Positions 4,742-33,146 of a DNA stretch of 42,982 bases are shown piece by piece. Origin of the DNA: a virus; IMG/VR virus record IMGVR_UViG_3300018063_000023, positions 1-42,982 of that record; one strand, written 5' to 3'. Both the position numbers and the translations under genes were made by a program. Below the pieces are notes generated by a model. The model saw only the letters and a program-made list of their open reading frames with translations, was not told the DNA's origin and did no database searches. How positions within the stretch are numbered: position 1 is the first letter of the stretch; each line of letters begins with the position of its first letter.

Positions 4742-4916
4742 CGGTACTTATGCCTTCGTAGGGCTGCAAGCCGACGACACGGAGAACGAGGAAGGCTGGG
4801 CCGACATCATGCCGTATGACCCGGATGAGAAGCGGTGGCTTCAGGAACTTGGGCCGGGACGACTCGTGTTTATCCCCGATGCTTACCAACCACACAGAGG
4901 AGAAAACAATGAATAA
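4731..4916 (+). CDS. hypothetical 61-aa protein
   Basis: GTG start overlapping the end of the truncated nuclease paralogue by 11 nt. It has no clear ribosome binding site, so it may be translated by coupling, or its true N-terminus may have been lost at the truncation junction. The product (RIDGTYAFVGLQADDTENE to GRLVFIPDAYQP) is acidic and well composed, with beta-like stretches. Its last codons carry the AGAGGAG site for the lipoprotein gene. Family not recognised. Confidence 0.55.
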   Translation: MRIDGTYAFVGLQADDTENEEGWADIMPYDPDEKRWLQELGPGRLVFIPDAYQPHRGENNE

Positions 4917-5301
4917 AGTCACCCGAATTATCACCATTGCACTATGCATTCTCGCGCTCGGCGCGACCGCATGTGTCAGTGATGCCGACGTGGCGTCACA
5001 GAACCTCTCAAAAGCTGCCGACAACTTTGAGATCCTACGCCGGGTCGTGTTCTACAACGGTATTACTGGCGAATATATGCTCACAATTGAGGGTCGCTGC
5101 TCTCTTGGCAACAGCGACAAGGCCCGCGAGTTGTCGGTGACATGCAAGGTTGGCCCGAGTCAGTTCAAGAAGCACTTCCTGGGCTTGTCCGACAATGTGA
5201 GTTACTTCGTGGAGCAACTGGAATCAGCGAGCGTGAGTACGTATCACTACCGCGTAGTGTTCAAGCCGTCGGTTATCCTACCCGACATCGATGTTCGCTG
5301 A
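4909..5301 (+). CDS. beta-sandwich lipoprotein (actinophage family)
   Basis: 130 aa with ribosome binding site AGAGGAG. The N-terminus is a lipoprotein-type signal: basic MNKVTR, a hydrophobic core, then LGATAC with C22 as the likely lipidated cysteine (the box is degenerate at -3). The mature part, with SQNLSKAADNFEI, FYNGITGEYMLTIEG, HFLGLSDNVSYFVEQ and HYRVVFKP, matches from memory the beta-sandwich lipoproteins common in mycobacteriophages and other actinophages. It should be exported and anchored on the outer face of the host membrane. A role in blocking superinfection is often suspected for phage lipoproteins but is inference here. Confidence 0.88.
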   Translation: MNKVTRIITIALCILALGATACVSDADVASQNLSKAADNFEILRRVVFYNGITGEYMLTIEGRCSLGNSDKARELSVTCKVGPSQFKKHFLGLSDNVSYFVEQLESASVSTYHYRVVFKPSVILPDIDVR

Positions 5302-5317
5302 GGAGGCGATACGAGTG

Positions 5318-5560
5318 ATGAAGACAGAGTTTAAGGCAGTACGATCAGCTCTATTTCTAAGCCCTGATGAGGAGGATGGTAATTTGCACGCTAATGCGTG
5401 GAATGCCTTGTGCATGATCGAAGCTTATGTACAACAACTGGAAGGTGAGAATATTCATCTTCGGGCGCAAGCCGAAGCAGAGATAAGGGGGAACGTGCCG
5501 TTCATTTCTGGGCTTCCTTATACCTACACAACAAAAGTTCAGTATGGCGACAAGGCATGA
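5318..5560 (+). CDS. hypothetical 80-aa protein
   Basis: AGGAGG at 5301-5306 serves either the GTG at 5315 or the ATG at 5318; the ATG is given here. An earlier in-frame ATG at 5291 lies inside the lipoprotein gene without its own site. The product has a helical middle (NALCMIEAYVQQLEGENIHLRAQAEAEI) and a polar Tyr/Thr-rich tail. It is the last gene before the RNA block at 5575-5715. No family recognised. Confidence 0.65.
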   Translation: MKTEFKAVRSALFLSPDEEDGNLHANAWNALCMIEAYVQQLEGENIHLRAQAEAEIRGNVPFISGLPYTYTTKVQYGDKA

Positions 5561-5574
5561 GATGATAGCTATAC

Positions 5575-5641
5575 GGGCGGGATAGGTTTCGACGGTGTAC
5601 GCTTGTGTACCCGGACGTGGGTTCGATTCCCACCCCGTCCA
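5575..5641 (+). ncRNA. tmRNA-like tRNA-like domain without an mRNA-like region
   Basis: A 67-nt element with a complete 7-bp acceptor helix (GGGCGGG 5575-5581 with CCCGTCC 5634-5640, one G-U) and a perfect T arm (GTGGG 5617-5621, TTCGATT loop, CCCAC 5629-5633). In place of a tRNA D arm it has GGTTTCGAC (5585-5593), the hallmark of the tmRNA 5' end, and GGAC before the T arm, as in tmRNA 3' ends. Between them CGG-GTAC pairs with GTAC-CCG around GCTTGT, forming a short capped helix 2. The tag reading frame and pseudoknots of a normal ~350-nt tmRNA are absent. No CCA is encoded. It could be a minimised tmRNA, a tRNA relic or a tRNA mimic. Confidence 0.6.
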
Positions 5642-5645
5642 CTCC

Positions 5646-5715
5646 GCTCCGCGGGGCACTCTGATTATGGTGCCCGGCGACGGCTGGGGGCGAAGCGCTT
5701 CGTCTCCCGCGGAGC
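5646..5715 (+). ncRNA. structured RNA element, three-way junction predicted
   Basis: Starts 4 nt after the tmRNA-like element. Arms GCTCCGCGGG (5646-5655) and CCCGCGGAGC (5706-5715) are perfect inverted repeats. They enclose a hairpin GGGCAC/GTGCCC (5654-5659 with 5670-5675) and a 12-bp palindrome CGAAGCGCTTCG (5691-5702) with G-rich/C-rich extensions. There is no U-tract, so it is not a standard terminator. It could be a functional RNA, a processing signal, or a stabiliser for the RNA upstream. Confidence 0.45.
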
Positions 5716-5728
5716 TTATCTTGAGGTA

Positions 5729-5854
5729 ATGATGAGACGAAAACTAACACCCGAAGAATACAAACGGCTAAGTTTCTGGCTCGCAGTCTTGAGGACTGTG
5801 GGGAGCACGGCCACAGCTTTGGTCGCGCTGTACCTTTTGTGGGGACGGGGATGA
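5729..5854 (+). CDS. 41-aa single-span membrane protein
   Basis: Two adjacent ATGs (5729, 5732) follow TTGAGG. The product has a basic head (MMRRKLTPEEYKRL) and one hydrophobic helix (about residues 16-38, ending ALYLLWGRG). The stop overlaps the next ATG as ATGA. The frame is open farther upstream, but that stretch is the RNA element. Likely an N-in membrane peptide; function unknown. Confidence 0.6.
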   Translation: MMRRKLTPEEYKRLSFWLAVLRTVGSTATALVALYLLWGRG

Positions 5855-6435
5855 ACCCGCTTCTGGTACTCGCAAGCTGCGGCCTAGCGTGGTATATCTT
5901 GCACGGCCTTTACAAATACGAGCGGGCGCGCCGCGAGTGGCGGGAAGAGCACCCGGATTGGAAAGAGTGGGAAGAAATGACAATGATGGGATTGCCAGAG
6001 GCTCCACCACCGCGGCCGGACAAAGAAGCCGATGAGGGCAACCGAAGGGAGAGGTCAGCGCGTGAAGACAACAGGCGCAGGCGGCAGGGCAAATGGGCCG
6101 TCTTTATGATGGCAGCTGTCTTCGGCGCGGCCATCATGGCGGCGGGGTTGGTTTCGGGGGCTACGAGCGTAGCACCGGCCTCCCCCGCTGCCACTCCATC
6201 TACCGCCCCATCCGCTACCTCGGATCTAGTTGAAGAAGCTGCTGACCAGTTTCTTCAAGACGTTTCGAGGGCAACCGGGGATTCAGAGCGGTACGTCCAG
6301 CTCATCTGGTGCCAAGGTCTTCAATTAGGAAGCACGCCCCGGGAAGAGTGGAGGCAGAACGGCTTAGCCGCGGGCGGGTCGGAGGAATTCGTAGATGCCG
6401 TGGGAGCGGAACTTGATTCCCGCTGTGAGGCATGA
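5851..6435 (+). CDS. two-span membrane protein, 194 aa
   Basis: The ATG at 5851 is coupled by ATGA to the 41-aa membrane gene and preceded by GGGGACGGGG. There is an N-terminal hydrophobic segment (MNPLLVLASCGLAWYILHGLY), a charged helical region with HPDWKEWEE and an Arg-rich stretch (NRRRRQGK), a second membrane span at about 87-108 (AVFMMAAVFGAAIMAAGLV), an Ala/Pro/Ser/Thr linker, then a globular C-terminal domain ending DSRCEA. Topology suggests the C-terminal domain lies outside the membrane if both spans insert. No family recognised. Confidence 0.7.
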   Translation: MNPLLVLASCGLAWYILHGLYKYERARREWREEHPDWKEWEEMTMMGLPEAPPPRPDKEADEGNRRERSAREDNRRRRQGKWAVFMMAAVFGAAIMAAGLVSGATSVAPASPAATPSTAPSATSDLVEEAADQFLQDVSRATGDSERYVQLIWCQGLQLGSTPREEWRQNGLAAGGSEEFVDAVGAELDSRCEA

Positions 6436-6926
6436 CGCGAAAGCTTGCAAACTCGGAGGACATTCCCGCAGGGGGAGCCGATCCGACTGGTGCCCGGTGT
6501 TCCGCGCACAGTGCAACGAATACGAGCGGACCTACTTCCGCACGAGACGAAACTGGATCAGCATCGAAGAAGCAAAGCTCCGGTGGAGCGCAAAAAGGCG
6601 TCAACGGAATCTTAATACCAACGAGCAGCACTCTGGAGAAGTATGGAATCACTAAGGACGAGTGGTTACAACTACTCGCTAGCAGCGGATATGTTTGCGG
6701 GGTTTGTGGTAATAAACCTCCGAGTGGGAGGTTGTTCACGGATCACGAGCACGTCCGGGGCTGGAAGAACATGGCTCCGACTATGCGAAAGCGTTTCGTT
6801 AGGGGCCTAGCCTGCTACGTGTGTAACAGGTTTGTTCTTAATCATCGAATCTCAGCAAAGCTCTTGCGAAGCGGTGCCGATTACCTCGACGCGTATGAGA
6901 AGCGGTCGCAGGAGGAAGGTGTTTAG
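6432..6926 (+). CDS. recombination endonuclease VII-type HNH nuclease
   Basis: The C-terminal half carries the endonuclease VII signature: C89-x2-C92, D104-H-E-H107, then R124-GLAC-x2-C131-N132. The four cysteines bind a structural zinc, and DHEH is the metal-dependent active site that cleaves Holliday junctions and branched DNA, freeing DNA for packaging. The KYGITKDEWLQLL lead-in is also typical. The first ~60 residues are Ser/Thr/Gly-rich and poorly family-like. Over about 6480-6600 a different frame looks more protein-like, so a frame change may lie near 6600-6635. The start given is the ATGA coupled to the upstream stop. Confidence 0.85.
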   Translation: MTRKLANSEDIPAGGADPTGARCSAHSATNTSGPTSARDETGSASKKQSSGGAQKGVNGILIPTSSTLEKYGITKDEWLQLLASSGYVCGVCGNKPPSGRLFTDHEHVRGWKNMAPTMRKRFVRGLACYVCNRFVLNHRISAKLLRSGADYLDAYEKRSQEEGV

Positions 6927-7059: not shown

Positions 7060-7298
7060 TGACGACAAAAGCTAAGATCGGGGATATCGTCGCCGTCGAA
7101 TGGCAGGATGCCTGGTGTATTCACGAAGAAAGTTCCGAAAATGACTGGGCGGATTCTTTCGCGCTGACGACGTATGGCATTCTCCGCCGTAACGGGGATA
7201 TCGTTACGGTCGAAAGCGAGACCAATGTTAACGGCGAGGGTCGGTGCACTACGCATATCCCGCGCGGAATCGTGTCGCGCATCCGGCGGCTTACGTGA
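7059..7298 (+). CDS. hypothetical 79-aa beta-rich protein
   Basis: TAATG-coupled to the acidic peptide. It begins MTTKAKIGDIVAVEWQDAW, has repeated beta-type stretches (GDIVTVESETN), and ends IPRGIVSRIRRLT. The short KIGDIVAVEW opening resembles small SH3-like or KOW-like barrels, but this is only a resemblance. The last 4 bases overlap the 5' end of the tRNA-His, so a transcript cannot yield both intact. Confidence 0.6.
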   Translation: MTTKAKIGDIVAVEWQDAWCIHEESSENDWADSFALTTYGILRRNGDIVTVESETNVNGEGRCTTHIPRGIVSRIRRLT

Positions 7299-7366
7299 GG
7301 CGGGGGTGGGTGGTAGCCCGTCCGGTTGTGTCCCGGAAGGATCAGGTTCGATTCCTGGGCCTCACT
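7295..7366 (+). tRNA. tRNA-His (anticodon GTG)
   Basis: Complete 72-nt cloverleaf. Acceptor GTGAGGC (7295-7301) pairs fully with GCCTCAC (7359-7365). D stem GGGT/GCCC has an 8-nt loop, and anticodon stem TCCGG/CCGGA holds loop TTGTGTC, giving anticodon GTG (7329-7331 region). The variable loop is 4 nt and the T arm is TCAGG-TTCGATT-CCTGG. Two oddities: base 37 is U rather than a purine, and neither G-1 nor C73 (base 73 is T, base -1 is C), the usual histidine identity pair, is encoded. CCA is not encoded. Confidence 0.85.
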
Positions 7367-7397
7367 CCGTATAATGGTGATAGTGGGTTTAGCCCAC
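7347..7397 (+). promoter_or_regulatory. possible promoter (TATAAT) and small hairpin upstream of the exonuclease operon
   Basis: A perfect TATAAT lies at 7370-7375, 4 nt after the tRNA. The hexamer 17 bp upstream (TTCGAT, 7347-7352) is a poor -35. A GTGGG-TTTAG-CCCAC hairpin at 7383-7397 follows in the leader of the next gene. This is the only gap in this part of the arm where genes are not directly coupled, so a separate promoter is plausible but unproven. Confidence 0.25.
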
Positions 7398-7659: not shown

Positions 7660-8236
7660 ACAAGTTGCCGAGATGAGAGTGCTGTATTTTGACTTGGAGT
7701 GCAAGCCCGGGCACTGGATCGGCGGGGATTATGTGTCGAAGATCATTACTGCCGGAGCATATGCCTTCGGAGAAGATGATCCTACAGTGTTGACCCATTA
7801 CGAAGTTCTTCCGGGCGACATCGCCCGAGAAATTGCGAACGCAGTTAGGTCGGCCGATCTTGTAGTGGGGCATTACATCCGCGGGTTCGACCTGCCGTTG
7901 TTGAACGGTGAGCTGCTTCGCGCGGAAGAACCACCGCTTGGACCCGTCCTCTCGCATGACACCAAAGAGGATTTGTATCCAGCGCACGGCCGGAGCAAGA
8001 GCCAAAAGAACTTAGGTGCCGACTTGAAGCTGGATAACCCGAAAATCGAAGTGACCCTTGCGGAGTGGGAGGGCTTTAACGGTCGATACCCGGGGTTCGA
8101 GGAGAAGATCATCGAGCGCGTCGTCGGCGACGTGGTTCAAAACCGCGAGCTGCGACTGGCGCTCATCGACATCGGCTGGATCGGCCCGCCGACTATCTGG
8201 CAGCCCGATGGGCGGGAGGCGGTGTACGTACCGTGA
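7649..8236 (+). CDS. DnaQ-like 3'-5' exonuclease (RNase H fold)
   Basis: 195 aa with the DEDD exonuclease motifs: Exo I D15-x-E17 (YFDLECKPG), Exo II GHYIRGFDLPLLN with the conserved D, and an Exo III-like GDVVQNREL segment. Such stand-alone proteins degrade DNA or RNA from the 3' end and may proofread or trim ends. The family A polymerase here has its own exonuclease domain, so this is an extra activity. The ATG at 7649 overlaps the previous gene; an alternative ATG at 7673 begins just before the first motif (MRVLYFDLE). The stop overlaps the next GTG. Confidence 0.82.
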   Translation: MKLRQVAEMRVLYFDLECKPGHWIGGDYVSKIITAGAYAFGEDDPTVLTHYEVLPGDIAREIANAVRSADLVVGHYIRGFDLPLLNGELLRAEEPPLGPVLSHDTKEDLYPAHGRSKSQKNLGADLKLDNPKIEVTLAEWEGFNGRYPGFEEKIIERVVGDVVQNRELRLALIDIGWIGPPTIWQPDGREAVYVP

Positions 8237-8721
8237 GGGAACTAGAAACCTGGAGTAACGAATTCTGGCCAGAAGTTTTTGAAAAGAGAGACAAGTGGGA
8301 TCAGCGATTCCTTGATATGGCAAGTCTCATCAAGACGTGGAGCAAGGACCCGAATACGCAGACCGGAGCTGTCATCGTGCGGCCGAATCGCTCGATCGCC
8401 AGCGTGGGCTTCAACGGCTTCCCGCGAAACATGCGGGACGATGAGGAGCTGTACGCTGACCGGCCCAAGAAGTTGAGCCGAATTGTTCATTGCGAGATGA
8501 ATGCTCTACTAGCGGCAGTCGAGCCAGTACGGGGTTACATGCTCTATACAACCACCATGTGCTGTGACCGGTGCGTAGTCCACATGCTACAAGCGGGTAT
8601 CTCGCGATTCGTCTGGCCTGAAGATACCAAAGGCATGATGAGCCGGTGGGCGGAATCCTTTGCCCTGACCCAATCTTACCTGGACGAGGCCGGAGTCTCT
8701 TACAGGGAGGTGTCGAGGTGA
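8233..8721 (+). CDS. dCMP deaminase
   Basis: 162-aa zinc deaminase that converts dCMP to dUMP. It has the cytidine/deoxycytidylate deaminase signature: HCEMNALL (zinc His and catalytic Glu) and TTMCCDRCVVHM (second zinc pair, C-x2-C), plus the N-terminal KDPNTQTGAVIV typical of dCMP deaminases. GTG start in a GTGA overlap with the exonuclease stop. No thymidylate synthase lies in the window, so dUMP must be used by a host enzyme or one encoded outside. Confidence 0.92.
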   Translation: MRELETWSNEFWPEVFEKRDKWDQRFLDMASLIKTWSKDPNTQTGAVIVRPNRSIASVGFNGFPRNMRDDEELYADRPKKLSRIVHCEMNALLAAVEPVRGYMLYTTTMCCDRCVVHMLQAGISRFVWPEDTKGMMSRWAESFALTQSYLDEAGVSYREVSR

Positions 8722-14783: not shown

Positions 14784-15421
14784 TATGCCACCGGAGTATC
14801 TTGTCCGTGGACGTGCGGGTGTTGCGCTAGTCCCACGTGAAAGTGCTCCTCAGCCTTGGGGCGCGAGGTTGCTACCTTGGCGGCGTTGAAACCCCTTTTC
14901 TTGTGCTTGGTCCAGAAGTCCTTAAAGGCGATACCGGCAAGCTGCGCATCCCAGCCCTCCTCGTATTCATCTAGGTTCATGTCTACTTCCTCCGCGTAGC
15001 CACCTTGGTACGTGATGTGCCACGATTCACTCGGTATGTCAAATTTGAATCCAAATCTCTCCGCGTTGTGGTGCGCCCAAGCAATATCACTGTCTTGACT
15101 CCAACTCAAGTCAAATGCCACAGCCCAACCGTGGTTGCTGGTGCCGGGGTAAGCTGCCAGGTTTCCCCCGTTTTGGTAGTCGATCCACTTCTCCCACTGC
15201 TTTGACAGCGTACGATAACTGTACTTGACCCAGATATGAATGCCCTGAGCCTTAGCTTCCGCGAGGAAGTCTGACATTGCCAAGGCTGCGTCAGGATGGG
15301 CGATAGCAGGACCTTGCAAGTCAATATCATACTGCTGGGGATATACCTCAGCCAGGAGGTCACGGGGAATGTCACCATTGTTGACACTCGCGCGCCACTG
15401 CGTCTTGTTGTAGTACGCCAT
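14783..15421 (-). CDS. endolysin, M15/VanY-type L-Ala-D-Glu or D-Ala-D-Ala peptidase
   Basis: 212 aa. The peptidase M15 signature is S95-N-H97-GWAVAF-D104, with a later E132-x2-H135 (SESWHI). H97, D104 and H135 are the zinc ligands, and KYSYRTLSKQ earlier is the usual substrate-side Arg region. It should cut peptide stems or cross-links of peptidoglycan. The C-terminal ~75 residues lack a recognisable wall-binding domain but contain several His (HFHVGLAQHPHVHG). It lacks a signal peptide, so release depends on a holin among the following genes. Confidence 0.9.
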   Translation of the reverse strand: MAYYNKTQWRASVNNGDIPRDLLAEVYPQQYDIDLQGPAIAHPDAALAMSDFLAEAKAQGIHIWVKYSYRTLSKQWEKWIDYQNGGNLAAYPGTSNHGWAVAFDLSWSQDSDIAWAHHNAERFGFKFDIPSESWHITYQGGYAEEVDMNLDEYEEGWDAQLAGIAFKDFWTKHKKRGFNAAKVATSRPKAEEHFHVGLAQHPHVHGQDTPVA

Positions 15422-18400
15422 TACGCACCTCCCGCCGGGATACCGGCCGCTGCGAGTACATTGTTAGTTGCCCCATACATTGCGTTGAGGTCTTCTGTCG
15501 TTGGCAGCGGGTATCCCAGCTGCTTGAGGTAGTCCATCGTCGGCAACACCGTTCCGTAATAGAAGTTCAGCTCTTCGGACATGAACTCTGCCTCACCGTA
15601 AGTCCTAAAAGAGACACCAGATGCAGCCGATATCAAGGCCGAGCCTCGAAGCTTGGTCCGCTTCGGGTCTTCATATAGCCAGTCTCGGAATCGTCCGACA
15701 ATCGGAATCACGCCCAACGTGTTCTGAAGTTTGTCGTCGATGTAATACCCGCCGTCCTCTCCTGTCTGTCCGATCCCGATTCCGGACAGCAATTTACCGA
15801 CAAACGGAATGTTATCAATCCAGGCAACCTTGACCGGCGCGCCCTCAATCGGCTTCCCGGTGAAGAAGCTCTTCTCAGTCACGTAGCTCTCAAGGAAAGG
15901 CCGGGCGAGGGGCAGGATGCTTGAGAACAATTCTCCCGCGCCTTGGTACAAGTCATTCATCGGCAGGTCGGCAGCGACAAGGTTGATCGCGTCTTCAGTA
16001 CTACCCAGTGTCGGGATCGAAAAGCCTTCCTGTGCCCACTCCGGCAATTTGCTCCTCACATCCTCCTGGTCGATCCCGGTCGCCGTGTAGAAGGCATCCT
16101 TAGCGTGCAGGACACCCATCAACTTGCCGGGATTCTCGAACAGAGTGTGGATCTGGAGGGGCGTGTTAGTTCGCATCCACTTATAGAAGGGAACGACATC
16201 GCGGATCGCACCGTATTCCCAGTCAGACAGGTCCCCATAATCACCGTGGCGCATCATTGTGAACGTGTGGGCGCCCATCATGTCGCCGTCGGTCTGCTTG
16301 AGCCCCTGAAGGAAGGCCGCCCCGCGAAGCATATTCTCAGTAAGCTCGCCGGTTCCGCGTAGTTTCTTGGCGATGATTCGACCAGGCTTACCGGCCTTAA
16401 CATTCTTGCGGAACGCGGTATCGACGATCGTCCAGGGAGAGTCAGCAGGCTTTGCCATCTCCTTGTCTAGTAGCTCAGAACCGATTCTGGCCGCGCCGAA
16501 CGTCTGGCTGTTACCGGCATTGATCCCGTTGTTGGTAAGCAAGACGGCGAGGTCGGCGTAAGTCGGATCGAGCCCAAAGTAGTAATCCCCCAGACCGTGC
16601 TTGTTGATAAACTCTCTGGGGAGCTTGGTACTTGACCATTTTGGTTTTGCAGCACCAGTCTCCACCTCCCGGCGGGCACGCATAGCCCTGCCGATCTCTA
16701 CATAGTCTTCGATTTGAACTCCACCAAGCCAGTTATTGAACCAGCCGCCCATCATGTTACGGATGTGGAAGCCGGGCCATGCCCACGTCGCCCATTCCTT
16801 CCACCAAGAAAGGTAGCGGCGCCAGACTTTCTGGAATTCATTCAAACTCTTGAAGCCCCTGGCAGCATAGTTGAATTCGTCCGCCATAGTCGCGGGCATG
16901 TAGACATCCTCAAGTCCCGGGACCATGACCTTGCCCATACCGACGTGTTCGGGATCTCCAATTCGCAAAGCGACCTTGGGATCAGCAACCCTGGCCTGCG
17001 CGGAGAACTGGATTCTATTCCACTCCTCCGCCGCCTCCTTCATTGCATTAGTTTGCCAATCGGCTTTTTGTCTTAGCCGATCCAATTCAGCTTCGCGTCC
17101 TTGAAGTTGCTTGACCAACCCCGGGCGAAGGTTTTCTGGCGTGGCGGCAGCCTTTCGGGCCGAGGCGATATCCTCCGGCAAGCCCCTATGCTCTTGAAGC
17201 CACTGCACTGTATTAACTTCGCGGTCGATCGCACTCTGAATTCGCTCGTTCAGACCTGCGAGCGTGGTCTCAATTCGACGCATATCCTTTTGGGCAACCT
17301 TGGCAACCTTGGTCTGGTGCCTGGCCATCTTCTGAGCTAGCTGCCAGAATTTCTCGGACTGCTGAGAAAGCCATTTGCCGCTGTTCATATACGCAGCGGA
17401 GGGAGCCGCCTCATACCGCGGGCCGAGGAATCTGGAAGTAAACGGAGAGCGGGACAAGCCCATCTGTTGCAACCTTCTAGTCTGCCTACCGAGGTAGATG
17501 TTGCCCACATCGTTAGCCATGCCGTCAACGTAGGCGGCTAGGTTAGCGGGCACGTCCACATCCAACATCCGCATATCATCAGGGACTTCTAGATCCATCT
17601 CACGCAGCATCTTGCGAATATGATTGTCAGCCTCCCCAAAGTTCATGTCCTTTGTCTGGCGCTCAAAATGAGCATCCCAGTCGCGGGGGGCTCGGCGCTC
17701 AATCGTACCCGGCTTACCCTCTAATAGTTCGTGAACTTCTGAGGTCATCCTGCGGTGGAAGTAGCCCTGCTCGGGGCCGTAAATAGGGGCGTCATTCGTC
17801 AGCTCCCAGATCGGGGCTCTGTCGCCCGTTTGTAGCCCCTTCTCAAAGACTACCACGCGCTGCTTGCCGTCCTTGACATGAATAACGCCATCGTGGCCCG
17901 CTTCTTCTAAGAACTGAGTCTTCAGACGGGCGGCAATCTCGTCTTGCGACTCCAGTGCAATTCGCGCCATCTCCCGAGTCATGCCTTCAGGGGCGAGTCC
18001 TAGGTCTTTTAGCATTTCCTGGACTTGCTCATCCATTTCGTCGAACTTGGGATTATCGAGGATCGCGCGAATCTGCGGATCCCACTTCTCGTTGAACATT
18101 TCCATTGTCTTGGCGACGTACTCGTCAGCCTGCTCTGCAATATCCATCCCGCCTGCCGTAGTCGTATCGACCGGGCGCTTGCCACGTTTGATCATAGCCG
18201 CGGCATCTTCATTGATCACAACGGGATTTTTCAAGGCGGCAACAGCTTGCTTACGTGGGTAAGCATTGGAACCCTTATTGATGATCTCGCGTGCCTGTGG
18301 GTCTTCCCGCAAGTCTTTGATCAGCTTGTCTATCCCCTCGGAGTTGTATTGGGATTCTTCCTGAGTAAAGACCTTTCCTACTATGTCCCTAAAGCGCGGA

Positions 18401-21400
18401 TCGCTCTCCGGGATCTTCCCGAGCGAGCGGCCGATGAACTCATCCATCGCAGCCATCTCGGCATCCAATGCTCCAGGACCCATGATCTCCAGGTAGTCTG
18501 ATGGCAAAACCTTGTTCCAGCCACCGTCAAGCGGGTCGCCGAACAGCTCGGTCGCGAGGTCCTCCTTCTGCCCGGGATCCATTTCCGGGGAGCGCTTCAT
18601 GAACTCGTCGAAGTCCGGATCGCCCTCGAACCGCGAGCGGTGCCAGGCGTCGATTGAGCCCAGCTTCTCTTGCCAATACGCGATGTCCGTCGCCTCGTCC
18701 AACTCGCCGATCTGCTTATTTCCGAGGATCTGCCCCCACTTCGGGTCCACCGCCTCAGACTGGGCAAAGTTGTCGATGAGGTCGAGATGCTCCTCCGGCA
18801 CACCGAAGCCCGCCACCAGGGTACGGATGTTGGCGGATGGCTCGATGTCAGGACGCTCAACAAAGTCGCCGACATGCATCTTTTTGATCTCGTCGCCAAC
18901 GCCGAGCGCCTTCGAAACTCGGGGGAGTGGTGTCAGTTCTGCATCAACCTGGTTGATGAATCCCTGGGCATCGTCAACCCAAGCAGGTTCGGGAATCCAC
19001 TCCACGTCGTACTCGACACTGGGATCAAGAGCTTCAACTCGATGGTGCCCATCGAAGATGAAGTACTGGCCGTCCTCGGGGTCGTACGCCAAGCGGATTG
19101 GGCGCTTCTGGCCCTCTTCAGTCAGCTTCTTGGCGAACTCTTCCTTGCTGCCGTGGCTCTTGCGCCATTCGATCCCATCGTACTTAACCTTGGGGTCGTA
19201 TGCTTCTCGAAGTTGGGCGCCAGTCATTCTATCCGGCATGTTGTATCTTGGATCTTTTTTAGCTACGAGATCTAACTGCTTCTGGATCGCAGCAAACGCT
19301 TCCTCGCCTTGGGTTGCCGCGTCAGTGATATCGTCAAGCTCTCGAACGTCGTCTAACTCGATGCCATCGAGCATCTTCTGGGTCTCATCTTCTATATTCT
19401 TTAGGAAGGCGTCCGCCTTGGCGCCCTGATCTTTGGCGGCGGGCTTGGAGGCGTCCATGACCCAGTTAAACGTCTTGTCGAAGTCGGGGGGCTCGACGAG
19501 ATTGGGACTCCGCTTAGCCAAAGAGCGCCAAAGCTCTTGGGCGTCCCCGGATAGAGTTACATCAGACATCAAGACGCCGCCGCGCTTTTCAGCCTCGTCG
19601 GCTAACCTGTGATACATCTTCTTGCCGAGGCCGCGACCCCGCAGTTCTTCGGGGAGACCGACCCCCTGGATCACGATATTGCCCGATTCGTCGATCTCAG
19701 CGTCCAGTCCGGCCCTGCCGCTCGCGGCGTTATCGTAACCTTCGAAGTCGATCCTTACGCTGTTGCCCTCAATGTCTATTTCGATCGGGGGAAGCTCCGG
19801 GGACTCAGGAGAAGGCCGTTCCGGTCCACCTCTTGGCCCCTCTGGTCCCTCTGGGGCTCCCTTAGTACCAGGAGCTTCCGGCTGGACCGGCGGGGCAAAT
19901 TCATCAATCTCTTCCAGGTCGTACCCGCGCCCGAACGGAGTGTCTACTACATCTTCCAGCTCGAAACCAGGACCCACGCCCTCCCGGCGGGTGGCCCGCT
20001 GCACATAAGTCTTCCCGTGCTGTAAAACGTGCCCGGTCTCCACGACCTGCCTGTTGGCAGGGTGAATCACCGGCTCCGCCCCGGCGCGAATAGTGCTGTT
20101 GGCCGTGTGGCCTCCGAACTCGTTATGGATCTTTACGGTCTGTTTAGCCGCAAGGCGGTAAATCCGAGCCGCTAAGCCGATCTCTGGCGACTCCTTCATC
20201 AGAAGCTCGACTTGCTTCGCGTGCGAGAGTCTAATCTCATTGGTCTTCAACATCTGCTCTATCACATCGTCGGGCAATTTGTTCCTCTGGATGATCCCGG
20301 TGCGTTCGCTGTACCAACGTTCCGCGCCCATTTGTTGCGCTCGATAATCTGGGAACGACTCCAAGGCGCGAATCACGATCGTCGGATCATCTGGATACTT
20401 TTCCCTGACTAGCCGGTCGAGTTGGTGAAGCGTCCTCTGAGTCTCCGGCACAGACATGCGGCCAGTACCGCGTTTGGATACGTCACCAACAGCGTCTAGC
20501 TTCAAGCCGGAATTAGCAAGGTCTTCCAAGGGCTTGGGATCGTCTAAGTCCACGTCGTTTGCAAGTTCGAGCGCTTCCCTTTGAAGGGTTGCTTTGATAG
20601 ACCGAACCGTCTTCCGCGCGTCAGCAGACAGTGCGGTACCGAGCCCGCCCCCGCGCACGAGAGCAAACGAGCCTAAGTTACGGGTGATCCCACCAATCTG
20701 CCACGAGGCACTAGCAAACGCAGTTCCCAGCCTACCTCCCGGTCCACCAAAGTGCTGTGCCACTTGCGGAACTGCCTGCTTCAGCCCGTTCCACCCACCT
20801 GTCGTAGCGGCTTCGAGAGCTTGGCGGGCAAGAAAGGGGTCAAGCGTCTTACGTTCCACAGCTCTCATGATTCTATATTGCCCGCTCAGGCCGCTCATGA
20901 AGCGCCTGGCGATGCTCATATCCATCTTGGCCGTGCCCCATATAGCGGGAGTAATAATCCTGATACCGGGCAGGCTGAATCGAACCCCCCCAAGAAGTGA
21001 GGCTGCATAACGTCCTTGCATGTATTCCGCCCGGGTCCCGAACTTTCCTACGATCTTTTGAGCTTGAAGAATCTTAGTCATCTCGTCTATCGGGATACCG
21101 AATTGCTCGGCCATCTTTGGCCCGAGCCGGTTAAGCCCAAATTTACCGATGACCTTGTGCGCCTCGTCCGCAACTTTCAAAGCGTGAAGAGCAACGGCTT
21201 TATCAGCCCCGTGCAAGGCCATGCCTAGCGGCCCTCCGATAAAGTCTTGGTGAACGACGGACAAATCGTCTGCTAAAGCACCCCACTTCCCCGACCGGCC
21301 CATTCGCGGGTCTGTAATCGTCTTCCACCAGTGTTCAAATGCCTTGGCCCTTACTTGATCCCAGGGAGCATCGTCGGCAAGGTTAAGGGCTTTCTTGCCT

Positions 21401-22161
21401 AAAGTAGATGCAATATTGTCCAGAGTGGACAAGCCTTCCCCATACATCACAGCCTTGGCAGCGGTCATCGAGCCGAACCTCGTAGCTCCAATCCGGCCGA
21501 CTGATCCCAGACCGGCAGTCATATACGTCAGCGGGTCTACGGCAACATCCAAGCCAAATGACGTAACCCCCCGCCCGATTTTGGACAGGAGGTCATCGCC
21601 CTGCATGATATTCATTTGTTCGAGCCAGTCGCCCATCGTGGCGTCGGAATGCCCGCTAAGGGCATCACCCACGTTCTTCCAGATGCTCTCGTCTCCATCA
21701 GTCAGGATCTCGGGAATGATTCTTCCCGGCCTGGTGATGATTTCCAGCGCCTTCCCCAGCGGCGAAGACGCAACCGTCTGCAAGATACGACCAAAGAAAC
21801 CCGGACTATCGGGCTCTTCCCCGCGTTGAACAGACAACTGCTCTGCAAGCTCTGGATTTACCTGGGCGATTCTTGCGAGCGCGCGATCCGTTTGCTGATT
21901 AGCCCCGAGAAGAGTCTCGGCGGGGTCGGCGTTGCCCGATCCGCCAAGAGCAGTGGTCATTCTAGTTAACCAGTCATCCCCCGCAGCAACTATTCCTGGT
22001 GTCTGAATCTGAAGCTGTTGCGGGAGAAACGCTGACAGAGAAGACTGTGCGTCTAACGGGCCGAGTCCGAACGTGTTCGGGTCCGGCGCCGGTAGGGGCA
22101 TTCCTTGGGGAGTGGGCAGACCGGCAGGTACCGGTAGCATCCGCTCTAGAGGTGTTGACAA
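15421..22161 (-). CDS. giant internal virion / polyvalent ejection protein, 2246 aa
   Basis: The largest gene here. The N-terminal ~750 residues are mainly helical with no clear enzyme motif. A Pro/Glu/Gly linker (755-792) leads to a GNAT-like segment (about 792-885) with LPEELRGRGLGKKMYHRL, the acetyl-CoA-binding motif. At about 1015-1060, YFIFDGHHRVEAL is the ParB/sulfiredoxin-type DGHHR motif. At about 1385-1445, EEAGHDGVIH and RVVVFEKG resemble the end of phage ADP-ribosyltransferase-like domains (tentative). Coiled coil follows at 1600-1720, then WPGFHIRNMMGGWFNNWLGG (1795-1814), seen in other giant podovirus proteins. As last of three virion genes before lysis it matches T7 gp16-like ejection proteins. 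Confidence 0.85.
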   Translation of the reverse strand: MSTPLERMLPVPAGLPTPQGMPLPAPDPNTFGLGPLDAQSSLSAFLPQQLQIQTPGIVAAGDDWLTRMTTALGGSGNADPAETLLGANQQTDRALARIAQVNPELAEQLSVQRGEEPDSPGFFGRILQTVASSPLGKALEIITRPGRIIPEILTDGDESIWKNVGDALSGHSDATMGDWLEQMNIMQGDDLLSKIGRGVTSFGLDVAVDPLTYMTAGLGSVGRIGATRFGSMTAAKAVMYGEGLSTLDNIASTLGKKALNLADDAPWDQVRAKAFEHWWKTITDPRMGRSGKWGALADDLSVVHQDFIGGPLGMALHGADKAVALHALKVADEAHKVIGKFGLNRLGPKMAEQFGIPIDEMTKILQAQKIVGKFGTRAEYMQGRYAASLLGGVRFSLPGIRIITPAIWGTAKMDMSIARRFMSGLSGQYRIMRAVERKTLDPFLARQALEAATTGGWNGLKQAVPQVAQHFGGPGGRLGTAFASASWQIGGITRNLGSFALVRGGGLGTALSADARKTVRSIKATLQREALELANDVDLDDPKPLEDLANSGLKLDAVGDVSKRGTGRMSVPETQRTLHQLDRLVREKYPDDPTIVIRALESFPDYRAQQMGAERWYSERTGIIQRNKLPDDVIEQMLKTNEIRLSHAKQVELLMKESPEIGLAARIYRLAAKQTVKIHNEFGGHTANSTIRAGAEPVIHPANRQVVETGHVLQHGKTYVQRATRREGVGPGFELEDVVDTPFGRGYDLEEIDEFAPPVQPEAPGTKGAPEGPEGPRGGPERPSPESPELPPIEIDIEGNSVRIDFEGYDNAASGRAGLDAEIDESGNIVIQGVGLPEELRGRGLGKKMYHRLADEAEKRGGVLMSDVTLSGDAQELWRSLAKRSPNLVEPPDFDKTFNWVMDASKPAAKDQGAKADAFLKNIEDETQKMLDGIELDDVRELDDITDAATQGEEAFAAIQKQLDLVAKKDPRYNMPDRMTGAQLREAYDPKVKYDGIEWRKSHGSKEEFAKKLTEEGQKRPIRLAYDPEDGQYFIFDGHHRVEALDPSVEYDVEWIPEPAWVDDAQGFINQVDAELTPLPRVSKALGVGDEIKKMHVGDFVERPDIEPSANIRTLVAGFGVPEEHLDLIDNFAQSEAVDPKWGQILGNKQIGELDEATDIAYWQEKLGSIDAWHRSRFEGDPDFDEFMKRSPEMDPGQKEDLATELFGDPLDGGWNKVLPSDYLEIMGPGALDAEMAAMDEFIGRSLGKIPESDPRFRDIVGKVFTQEESQYNSEGIDKLIKDLREDPQAREIINKGSNAYPRKQAVAALKNPVVINEDAAAMIKRGKRPVDTTTAGGMDIAEQADEYVAKTMEMFNEKWDPQIRAILDNPKFDEMDEQVQEMLKDLGLAPEGMTREMARIALESQDEIAARLKTQFLEEAGHDGVIHVKDGKQRVVVFEKGLQTGDRAPIWELTNDAPIYGPEQGYFHRRMTSEVHELLEGKPGTIERRAPRDWDAHFERQTKDMNFGEADNHIRKMLREMDLEVPDDMRMLDVDVPANLAAYVDGMANDVGNIYLGRQTRRLQQMGLSRSPFTSRFLGPRYEAAPSAAYMNSGKWLSQQSEKFWQLAQKMARHQTKVAKVAQKDMRRIETTLAGLNERIQSAIDREVNTVQWLQEHRGLPEDIASARKAAATPENLRPGLVKQLQGREAELDRLRQKADWQTNAMKEAAEEWNRIQFSAQARVADPKVALRIGDPEHVGMGKVMVPGLEDVYMPATMADEFNYAARGFKSLNEFQKVWRRYLSWWKEWATWAWPGFHIRNMMGGWFNNWLGGVQIEDYVEIGRAMRARREVETGAAKPKWSSTKLPREFINKHGLGDYYFGLDPTYADLAVLLTNNGINAGNSQTFGAARIGSELLDKEMAKPADSPWTIVDTAFRKNVKAGKPGRIIAKKLRGTGELTENMLRGAAFLQGLKQTDGDMMGAHTFTMMRHGDYGDLSDWEYGAIRDVVPFYKWMRTNTPLQIHTLFENPGKLMGVLHAKDAFYTATGIDQEDVRSKLPEWAQEGFSIPTLGSTEDAINLVAADLPMNDLYQGAGELFSSILPLARPFLESYVTEKSFFTGKPIEGAPVKVAWIDNIPFVGKLLSGIGIGQTGEDGGYYIDDKLQNTLGVIPIVGRFRDWLYEDPKRTKLRGSALISAASGVSFRTYGEAEFMSEELNFYYGTVLPTMDYLKQLGYPLPTTEDLNAMYGATNNVLAAAGIPAGGA

Positions 22162-30685: not shown

Positions 30686-31444
30686 TTATACTCCTGCTGT
30701 AATGACTATGAACGACGGTGATCCGGTTGGTGTAGAAACTCGTAGGCGGATGAAGGCAGCCTCCGCGCGGTCGATGTCGCCGCCCGACGCTGTTCCCGTG
30801 CCGGTCGCTGTCGGGGCCGCAGAGCCGGTACCACTGGTGACCGGGGTGTCAGTCGAGTGGAAGGACATGTCACCGCCCGAAGTGGTCTCGCCCTCGTTCC
30901 TCTCGGTTGTCGCTCCGAACGTGACCCCCGTTTGGGCGGGCGTCAAGTTGGCAGTGAGAGGACCGATCGCGTCCGTGTTGACCGCGACACCACAGAGGAT
31001 ATGGTCGCCCGCTGTGACGCCTGGATCGGAGGCGAACGTGAAGGAGAGCGCGGTCCCGTCTGTCTCGTCTGCGCCGTATACCACAACGGGCGTCCCCCAG
31101 ACCTCGCCCGCGCCCTTGCTGAATATGTGGAGCGAACACCCTACGATGTTGAACGCGGGCGTCCCCTCGGTGAGCGTGGGGTTCGCCTCGGTGTCGGTCG
31201 TCGCCACCTTGTACCAGACCTGGAACTTCATCGAACCGATGTCCACGCCCGCAGCCGTGCTGCCGCTTGCGCCACTGCCTAACGCGGTCCAGCCCGCGGC
31301 ACCGACCGACCAGCCCAAATCGAACGGCTTCCCCCCAGCGATCAGGATCATCATGTCGCCCGTTACCTGGGATGGGTCGATGGTCGGCGTAAGGCTGTTG
31401 ATGCCGAAGTCAACGCCACCGTTCGCTCTGTAACCGATAGCCAT
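30686..31444 (-). CDS. virion protein, 252 aa (fibre-associated)
   Basis: True start is the ATG at complement 31442-31444 (MAIGYRANGGVDFG), coupled by TAATG to the fibre gene; the longer frame to 31567 adds an Arg/His-rich piece antisense-like in composition and is rejected. Beta-rich with DFGINSLTPTIDPSQVTGDMM, HIFSKGAGEVWGTPVV and a Thr/Gly/Ser-rich end (TSGTGSAAPTATGTG). Resembles the 269-aa protein at 28760-29569. Probably a fibre or decoration component. Confidence 0.65.
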   Translation of the reverse strand: MAIGYRANGGVDFGINSLTPTIDPSQVTGDMMILIAGGKPFDLGWSVGAAGWTALGSGASGSTAAGVDIGSMKFQVWYKVATTDTEANPTLTEGTPAFNIVGCSLHIFSKGAGEVWGTPVVVYGADETDGTALSFTFASDPGVTAGDHILCGVAVNTDAIGPLTANLTPAQTGVTFGATTERNEGETTSGGDMSFHSTDTPVTSGTGSAAPTATGTGTASGGDIDRAEAAFIRLRVSTPTGSPSFIVITAGV

Positions 31445-32682
31445 TACGGCCTCGTCAGTTCTACCTGGATGGTGATCTTCGTGGCCGTCCCCGCGTTCAC
31501 GACTTCGATCTCGATGTCGTCGTCGATGGCGACGGCGGCGTTCTGGATGGTGGAGGACGTTGACCAAGCGTTGGCCGCGGCGATGGCCAGGTCGGCCGCC
31601 AGGAAGTCAGAGGTCTGATTTAGGCGTGCGTTAACCGTCGTGGTGGTGCCCGCGTCCACGTGCCCTTGGATTTCCACCACGGTGCAGGCGAACGGCGCGC
31701 GCCACACCATGCGAAAGCCGGTTGCCGGTGAAGCACCGGCACCGTCGAGCAACCCGCCTACAGAGAACCTGTACGCCGTGATGCCGTGTGCGTGGTTCGC
31801 TCGTGCTACCTGGGTGCTCGCACCCTCGGTGCCGGTTGTGGTTCCGACGACATCGTTGGCCGGAAGGTCAGTCGGGTCGGTAATAGTATGCCGGTGGTCG
31901 CTCCGAGCGGGCGTAGTAGCCGTACCATCTGCCTCCGCCGCGAAGGTCGTGTCGAGGGGGTAGGCCGCGGCAGGGGCTGGGAAGCCGTGTACGTGATCGT
32001 CGGCGGCGGGCGGGTTCGTGCCGGTTCCTGCCGCTGCTGTGTCCCCGATGTCTACGGTGGTCGCCGCTGCCGGATCGGTATGGTCCGCACCAGAGTGGGC
32101 CTGGGCGTGGTGGTCATCCGCACTGACACCCGTCAAGACATCATGGGAGACCGTTCCTGCCTCTAGGCCGGTGGAAGCATGTGAGTGGTCGGCCGACTCC
32201 AAGCGGTACTGCGTGTGGTCGTCATCAGCGAGCCCGGCGAGTCCGCCATGGTCGATGGCTGCCGTGTCAATGTCTACGTCGGTGCTGGCCGCCCCGGGAT
32301 TGTCAGTGACGATGAAGCCATCTTGGAAATCCAGCGTCGCGCGCTGGGTCTCTGGGGTACCGGCGTCGGCGATGGTATGTCCGCCGACCCCAGGCTCTCC
32401 CTGCGGGCCAGCAGTTCCTGTCGGGCCTGGGATCGTGAACCCCGACTCGCCCTGCTCACCTTCAAATCCCATCGGCCCTTGTGCGCCGGAAGCCCCGGCG
32501 GCTCCCGCAGCGCCAGCAATGCCCCCATACGGAAGGCTACTCCAGGCCGTGGTGCCATCGCCGATCTTGAACTTGTTGGTATCGGTCTCTAGCCCCATCT
32601 CGCCATCGGCAAGTACGGGGTTGGCTGAAGTCCAGTCGGCGGCGACGTCACGCCGAAGTTGAATCTGAATTATGACGCCCAC
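31444..32682 (-). CDS. collagen-like tail fibre with Mtd-type N-terminal domain, 412 aa
   Basis: GTG start with GGAGGT upstream, overlapping the previous stop. Residues 1-52 (IQIQLRRDVAADWTSANPVLA, KFKIGDGTTAWSSLPY) match the small fibre N-terminal domain found in major tropism determinant-like proteins. Gly-X-Y collagen-like triplets follow (about 55-100), then many DDHxH/HxH elements (DDDHTQY, DDHHAQAHSGADH, DDHVHGF, DHRH) typical of metal-binding trimeric shafts. The C-terminal ~110 residues form a beta domain likely to bind the receptor. The N-terminal domain is duplicated in the next gene upstream. Confidence 0.8.
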   Translation of the reverse strand: MGVIIQIQLRRDVAADWTSANPVLADGEMGLETDTNKFKIGDGTTAWSSLPYGGIAGAAGAAGASGAQGPMGFEGEQGESGFTIPGPTGTAGPQGEPGVGGHTIADAGTPETQRATLDFQDGFIVTDNPGAASTDVDIDTAAIDHGGLAGLADDDHTQYRLESADHSHASTGLEAGTVSHDVLTGVSADDHHAQAHSGADHTDPAAATTVDIGDTAAAGTGTNPPAADDHVHGFPAPAAAYPLDTTFAAEADGTATTPARSDHRHTITDPTDLPANDVVGTTTGTEGASTQVARANHAHGITAYRFSVGGLLDGAGASPATGFRMVWRAPFACTVVEIQGHVDAGTTTTVNARLNQTSDFLAADLAIAAANAWSTSSTIQNAAVAIDDDIEIEVVNAGTATKITIQVELTRP

Positions 32683-33146
32683 TACGCTGAACCTCCATCT
32701 ACCGCCGCAGTACCGAAGTGATGTGCCAGTGCCCCATCGGCACCGCCGTCAAACTTGTAGCCCGCAGCCGTGTAGCCGAGGTAGGTTGTGGTCGCGATGC
32801 CACCATCAACAGGCCCAATACCTGCGCTAGTTGCTCCTCCTCCCCCGCCACCATCCGCACCGGGCGGACCTGCTGGGCCTCGGAGACCTGGGAACCCCAT
32901 AGGCCCTATTTCTCCGTCAGCACCCGCAAAACCTGGAGATCCTTGTGCCCCAGCAGGACCTTCAGGACCTGCGGGACCTTGCTCAAGGCTGTACGGGAGA
33001 TCATTCCAAGCGTTGACGCTATTACCGATCTTGACCTTGCCAGTATTTATTTCAAAACCCGGCTCGCCCTGGAGGAGAACCGGGTTTATGGATGCCCACT
33101 CTGCCGCAGTTCCCCGACGAAAGCGAATTTGAGCGGCAGTTGCCAT
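32682..33146 (-). CDS. collagen-like short tail fibre, 154 aa
   Basis: Same N-terminal domain as the 412-aa fibre ([36 protein letters not shown]), then a Gly-X-Y run ([13 protein letters not shown] and beyond), a GGGGGG hinge, and a short tail ending AAVDGGSA. Arranged head to tail with its paralogue by a TAGTG overlap, it looks like a duplicated, shorter fibre or a chaperone-like partner. Start coupled by TAATG to the 68-aa gene. Confidence 0.75.

Follow-up and report, generated by a model that had tools for sequence, protein, structure and literature searches.

A tmRNA reduced to its tRNA-like domain in a viral genome, and related tag-less forms in many viral contigs

The DNA analysed here, a 42,982-base IMG/VR virus record referred to as the window, possesses genes for primase/helicase, DNA polymerase, capsid, portal and terminase and, at 5575–5641 on the plus strand, a 67-nt gene that is almost certainly an intact tRNA-like domain (TLD) of tmRNA, i.e., a tag-less tmRNA. 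The same architecture is present in more than 200 viral contigs of IMG/VR. We hold it slightly more probable than all alternatives together that the window RNA would be charged with alanine and compete with host tmRNA.

The gene is intergenic and has the same orientation as the early genes. An initial annotation had described a 67-nt tmRNA-like element with intact acceptor and T arms at exactly these coordinates, and sequence and fold confirm both arms. The acceptor stem combines GGGCGGG (5575–5581) with CCCGTCC (5634–5640) in 7/7 pairs, and the 3′ strand together with the discriminator, A73, occupies 5634–5641 (A73 = 5641); CCA is not encoded. Its third pair, G5577–T5638, is the G3-U70 wobble (U70 = 5638) that the annotation had read there. 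The tmRNA 5′ hallmark GGTTTCGAC, an analogue of the D-loop, is located at 5585–5593, and the 3′ hallmark GGAC at 5613–5616, directly before the T arm (5617–5633; 5/5 pairs, loop TTCGATT); both motifs, recognized as hallmarks from the outset, align to the Rfam tmRNA model RF00023. The 19 nt between TTCGAC and GGAC (5594–5612), together with C5593 and G5613, form the P2 helix (5593–5613), a 7-bp hairpin with one bulged U and a 6-nt capping loop that is seen in the minimum free energy (MFE) fold and in family covariation. This capped P2 is the short hairpin previously proposed to replace the tag frame and pseudoknots: it occupies their place, contains no stop codon in any frame of its 19 nt, and leaves too little room for a tag plus pseudoknots. 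The MFE itself is unremarkable (z = −1.55), so the evidence for the RNA comes from the family model and comparative data rather than from raw stability. Downstream, a fold of 5560–5740 places a GC-rich multi-branch hairpin at 5645–5720 (+), possibly a 3′ processing or termination structure by association only; a search for terminator-like sites near it gave one weak candidate, at chance level.

The RF00023 search suggested by the annotation aligned 5575–5644 to model positions 1–374 with 54.6 bits (gathering threshold 47; E = 7.5e-19, computed over the whole window), a match far above chance, with 15 nt standing where 318 model positions are skipped. The element shares with standard tmRNA the acceptor, T arm, TTCGAC, GGAC, G3-U70 and the start of P2; it differs in lacking a resume codon, a tag frame with stop codon and pseudoknots between the TLD halves, which are joined by the single short hairpin, and in its length of 67 nt versus about 360. 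Being a phage-encoded intact TLD in 5′-to-3′ order without mRNA-like domain, it corresponds to the "standard, no CDS" type represented by mycobacteriophage DS6A. A permuted two-piece tmRNA was rejected, as the 5′ half comes first and the respective model (RF04321) scores 16.2 bits versus 47. The G3-U70 pair and A73 of alanine identity and the T arm are shared with tRNA-Ala, but there is neither an anticodon arm nor a D stem, and at 5575–5641 ARAGORN reported nothing and no gathering-level tRNA match was obtained; the tRNA assignment was likewise discarded. Our own family covariance model (R1) gives 58.7–88.3 bits for intact members of the family (mini-tmRNAs), with 61.1 for the window element, and at most 34.9 for full-length tmRNAs, permuted forms and tRNAs.

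Since the window virus has no close relatives (none were found in IMG/VR with its DNA polymerase or primase, there was no nucleotide match among named phages, and its capsid relatives from Manatee Spring, at 30% identity, contained no RF00023 match), comparison was performed on a wider family. A first IMG/VR pattern specified TTCGAC, GGAC and a portion of the T arm but left the acceptor unconstrained; it produced at least 119 stretches, nearly all of them 75–82-nt versions of the window design; the usual size in viral contigs is about 79 nt. Three complete scans, with A, G or T following TTCGAC, yielded 64, 74 and 71 contigs, respectively. At the expected spacing, a 7/7 acceptor is formed in 205 of 206 scorable matches versus 0.5% of random sites, and all 205 possess G3-U70. 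This unconstrained count replaces an acceptor covariation set that had been preselected for 7/7 pairing and was therefore set aside. The 205 matches comprise 130 unique sequences, which group into 75 clusters at 85% identity. All 130 have A73 and 38 encode CCA, while each of the acceptor pairs 4, 5 and 6 is represented by five or six pair types, with compensated changes. The invariance of TTCGAC and GGAC is partly imposed by the search pattern. Loss of acceptor pairing in related elements, named in the initial annotation as a sign of drift, is thus not the pattern observed.

The P2 cap covaries across the family. Its seven pairs beside TTCGAC/GGAC are formed in 88–129 of the 130 sequences versus shuffled means of 50–67, each with at least four pair types, and among 70 sequences below 90% identity pairs 2–6 are formed in 77–100%, as against 35–40% in slid controls. 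The window element is one of a subclass of shorter length, for which a complete short-P2 scan found about nine further contigs with a 7/7 acceptor and G3-U70, of which L262 has the acceptor closest to that of the window (GGGCGGC/GCCGTCC).

Cultured phages also encode mini-tmRNAs. Streptomyces phages LuckySocke, GiJojo, pSt2308 and BRock carry one in a conserved tRNA array, where it follows tRNA-Val and is not annotated as RNA in the public records. It is kept at this one site across diverged phages, with compensated acceptors (GGGTCTG/CAGATCC, GGGGCTG/CAGCTCC and GGGTTTG/CAAATCC). Streptomyces phage Shaeky encodes another mini-tmRNA. The copy in Alone3 (L247:3987–4063), a phage of the LuckySocke lineage, has a broken T stem and an altered GGTTTCGAC, whereas its relatives' copies are intact; it is likely decaying, which indicates that the RNA can be dispensable. 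BLAST matches in SM1, Rb1, Moby, a Salinibacter phage, S-CAM1 and BUCT-ZZ01 failed the test for the mini form and resemble the 3′ portion of different tmRNA forms. Separately, Microbacterium phage Dismas contains an unannotated tRNA-like element (L271:2439–2527) with a G3-U70 acceptor, a T arm and a rearranged middle without GGAC; it has BLAST matches in ten or more relatives and is a possible further variant.

Gene order around the element is partly conserved. In 10 other viral contigs, tblastn located relatives of endonuclease VII 1.2–2.0 kb downstream of the mini-tmRNA on the same strand, followed in 7 of them by dCMP deaminase, 3.4–4.9 kb downstream and also on this strand. The window shows the same order, with endonuclease VII (6432–6926, +; PF02945, E = 4.5e-11) at 0.8 kb and dCMP deaminase (8233–8721, +; phrog_174, E = 3.2e-39) at 2.6 kb. 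A separate tRNA gene is absent at about three quarters of 60 viral loci scanned for tRNAs. At these loci ARAGORN called no mini-tmRNA correctly as tmRNA, its lone tmRNA call (L071) overlapping the element but stretching to 324 nt. No SmpB gene was found in 74 virus records searched, many of them fragments, so the viral mini-tmRNA probably relies on host proteins. One 123.6-kb virus (G006) contains both a mini-tmRNA (L263:487–565) and, about 31 kb away, a separate full-length tmRNA (L264).

Several other features of the window deserve mention. ARAGORN predicts a tRNA-His at 7295–7368 (+), scoring 28.4 bits with Rfam, just below the tRNA gathering threshold of 29. Shortly upstream of the mini-tmRNA, a Phage_VG64 gene (4816–5301, +; PF25682, E = 2.8e-55) encodes a protein with 54–70% identity to proteins from phages that infect very different hosts; some of these proteins are annotated as recombination directionality factor. 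On the minus strand, 15421–22161 encodes a 2246-aa protein with a weak PHROG match and a distant relative near the mini-tmRNA of contig L117, and 31444–33146 contains two ORFs with collagen-like Gly-X-Y stretches amid structural genes.

The mini form is found in many viruses, yet it is not confined to them, and strict virus specificity was dropped as a few cellular genomes carry it. Among the matches listed for contigs of cellular genomes, most are the 3′ ends of ordinary tmRNAs and a handful are mini-tmRNAs: in an Acidimicrobiales contig that also bears a phage head gene, in a Chloroflexota contig, in two cyanobacterial contigs amid cellular genes, and in a Prochlorococcus single-cell contig that agrees in length and in its mini-tmRNA with an IMG/VR virus record. 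The bacterial genomes concerned also contain a full tmRNA, except Prochlorococcus, in which only the mini form passed. With R1, mini-tmRNAs were detected in 3/292 cyanobacterial and 1/396 actinobacterial genomes; both samples contain the genomes from which the search had started. Cyanobacterial copies beside a full tmRNA are located at L139:2383–2463 (+), L211:6776–6856 (+) and in L377–L379; the latter have GGCATCAC in place of GGTTTCGAC, with G3-U70 kept.

A molecule of this kind has a precedent in DS6A, described as encoding a TLD-only tmRNA (Mao et al. 2009, doi 10.4161/rna.6.4.9172, as related in PMC4131195 and PMC11915505). The likeness, drawn by description, lies in being phage-encoded, in comprising little beyond the TLD and in having no tag frame; DS6A is a single phage, whereas the present form, whose P2 cap covaries, recurs in over 200 viral contigs. 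PMC4131195 reports that, in E. coli, a molecule similar to that of DS6A is a strong inhibitor of tmRNA in chargeable and unchargeable form alike, perhaps through SmpB titration. The tmRNA database, with 97,179 sequences, lists nine "standard, no CDS" forms. Tag-frame-less tmRNAs are also known from mitochondria, where most are permuted and a role in dealing with incomplete mRNAs is assumed, and from Mallomonadaceae plastids (about 65 bp) (PMC11915505); these are organellar, whereas the phage mini-tmRNAs keep the standard 5′-to-3′ order. The initial interpretation, a mini-tmRNA or a decoy rather than a decayed remnant, is supported. The literature searched, which included few subscription journals, mentions neither the breadth of the family nor its covarying architecture, its synteny or its invariant alanine identity. 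The kind is already known from DS6A; what appears to be new is how broad the family is and that its alanine identity is invariant.

Canonical tmRNA is alanylated via G3-U70 and bound by SmpB, which substitutes for the anticodon arm; EF-Tu delivers it. The mini-tmRNA family retains the elements for charging, SmpB and EF-Tu, and has discarded everything needed for tagging. We hypothesize that host alanyl-tRNA synthetase would charge the RNA via G3-U70 and A73, that host SmpB and EF-Tu-GTP would bind the charged molecule, and that it would then compete with host tmRNA for SmpB, EF-Tu and stalled ribosomes; host trans-translation would be damped during infection, and phage proteins may thereby escape tagging for proteolysis. 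The TLD-only tmRNA of DS6A and the inhibition of tmRNA by a similar molecule make interference with host trans-translation the likeliest function. Inhibition was reported as independent of charging, and SmpB titration alone does not predict an invariant G3-U70; its perfect retention points beyond titration, so charging, and probably ribosome entry, appears to matter.

For this reason the main rival is rescue without a tag, in which the alanylated mini-tmRNA with SmpB enters a stalled ribosome and accepts the nascent chain, and other factors recycle the ribosome without a degradation tag being added, a route that has been suggested for mitochondrial tmRNA devoid of a tag frame. We regard it as a considerably less probable explanation, but a serious one. 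The alanine identity invariant across the family, the tag-less organellar tmRNAs and their supposed mitochondrial role speak for it, as do the cyanobacterial genomes with mini plus full tmRNA; a purely anti-host role does not account for the copies in these few chromosomes. Such rescue would nevertheless leave a peptidyl-RNA without a defined release step, there being no resume codon, and the similar molecule inhibited tmRNA. Competition with host tmRNA thus remains our preferred reading for the window RNA. Extended to the family, we see about an even chance that tag-less mini-tmRNAs constitute a broad, mainly viral class of alanylated competitors or substitutes of host tmRNA, in which the invariant G3-U70 and A73 would mean that charging, and hence delivery to the ribosome, is essential, over and above the SmpB titration put forward for the DS6A type.

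It is improbable that the element is a tRNA mimic serving in processing or regulation, as RNase P/Z punctuation or a ribosome-independent decoy in early transcripts: the intergenic position on the early-gene strand, the structured element downstream and the location of some relatives within tRNA arrays would suit this role, but it does not predict the invariant G3-U70 wobble and A73, nor TTCGAC and GGAC, the latter two being partly fixed by the search. Slightly less probable still is an origin by decay, from either a full phage tmRNA or a host ssrA copy at an integration site, for although integration into ssrA is common and the Alone3 copy is drifting, the helices are intact with compensated changes across 75 clusters (205/206 acceptors, making decay unlikely for the family, as the initial annotation had leaned), the 5′ and 3′ ends are both present, and the mini-tmRNA accompanying a full-length tmRNA in the 123.6-kb virus is not simply a decayed copy of it.

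To our knowledge, trans-translation is near-universal in bacteria, and only a small number of viral factors are known to act on it. Mini-tmRNAs are missed by ARAGORN and left unannotated in the records of cultured Streptomyces phages. They offer a ready test system for the question of why a tag-less tmRNA must still carry alanine, and the occurrence of a stripped tmRNA in over 200 viral contigs suggests that countering or bypassing ribosome rescue is common among phages.
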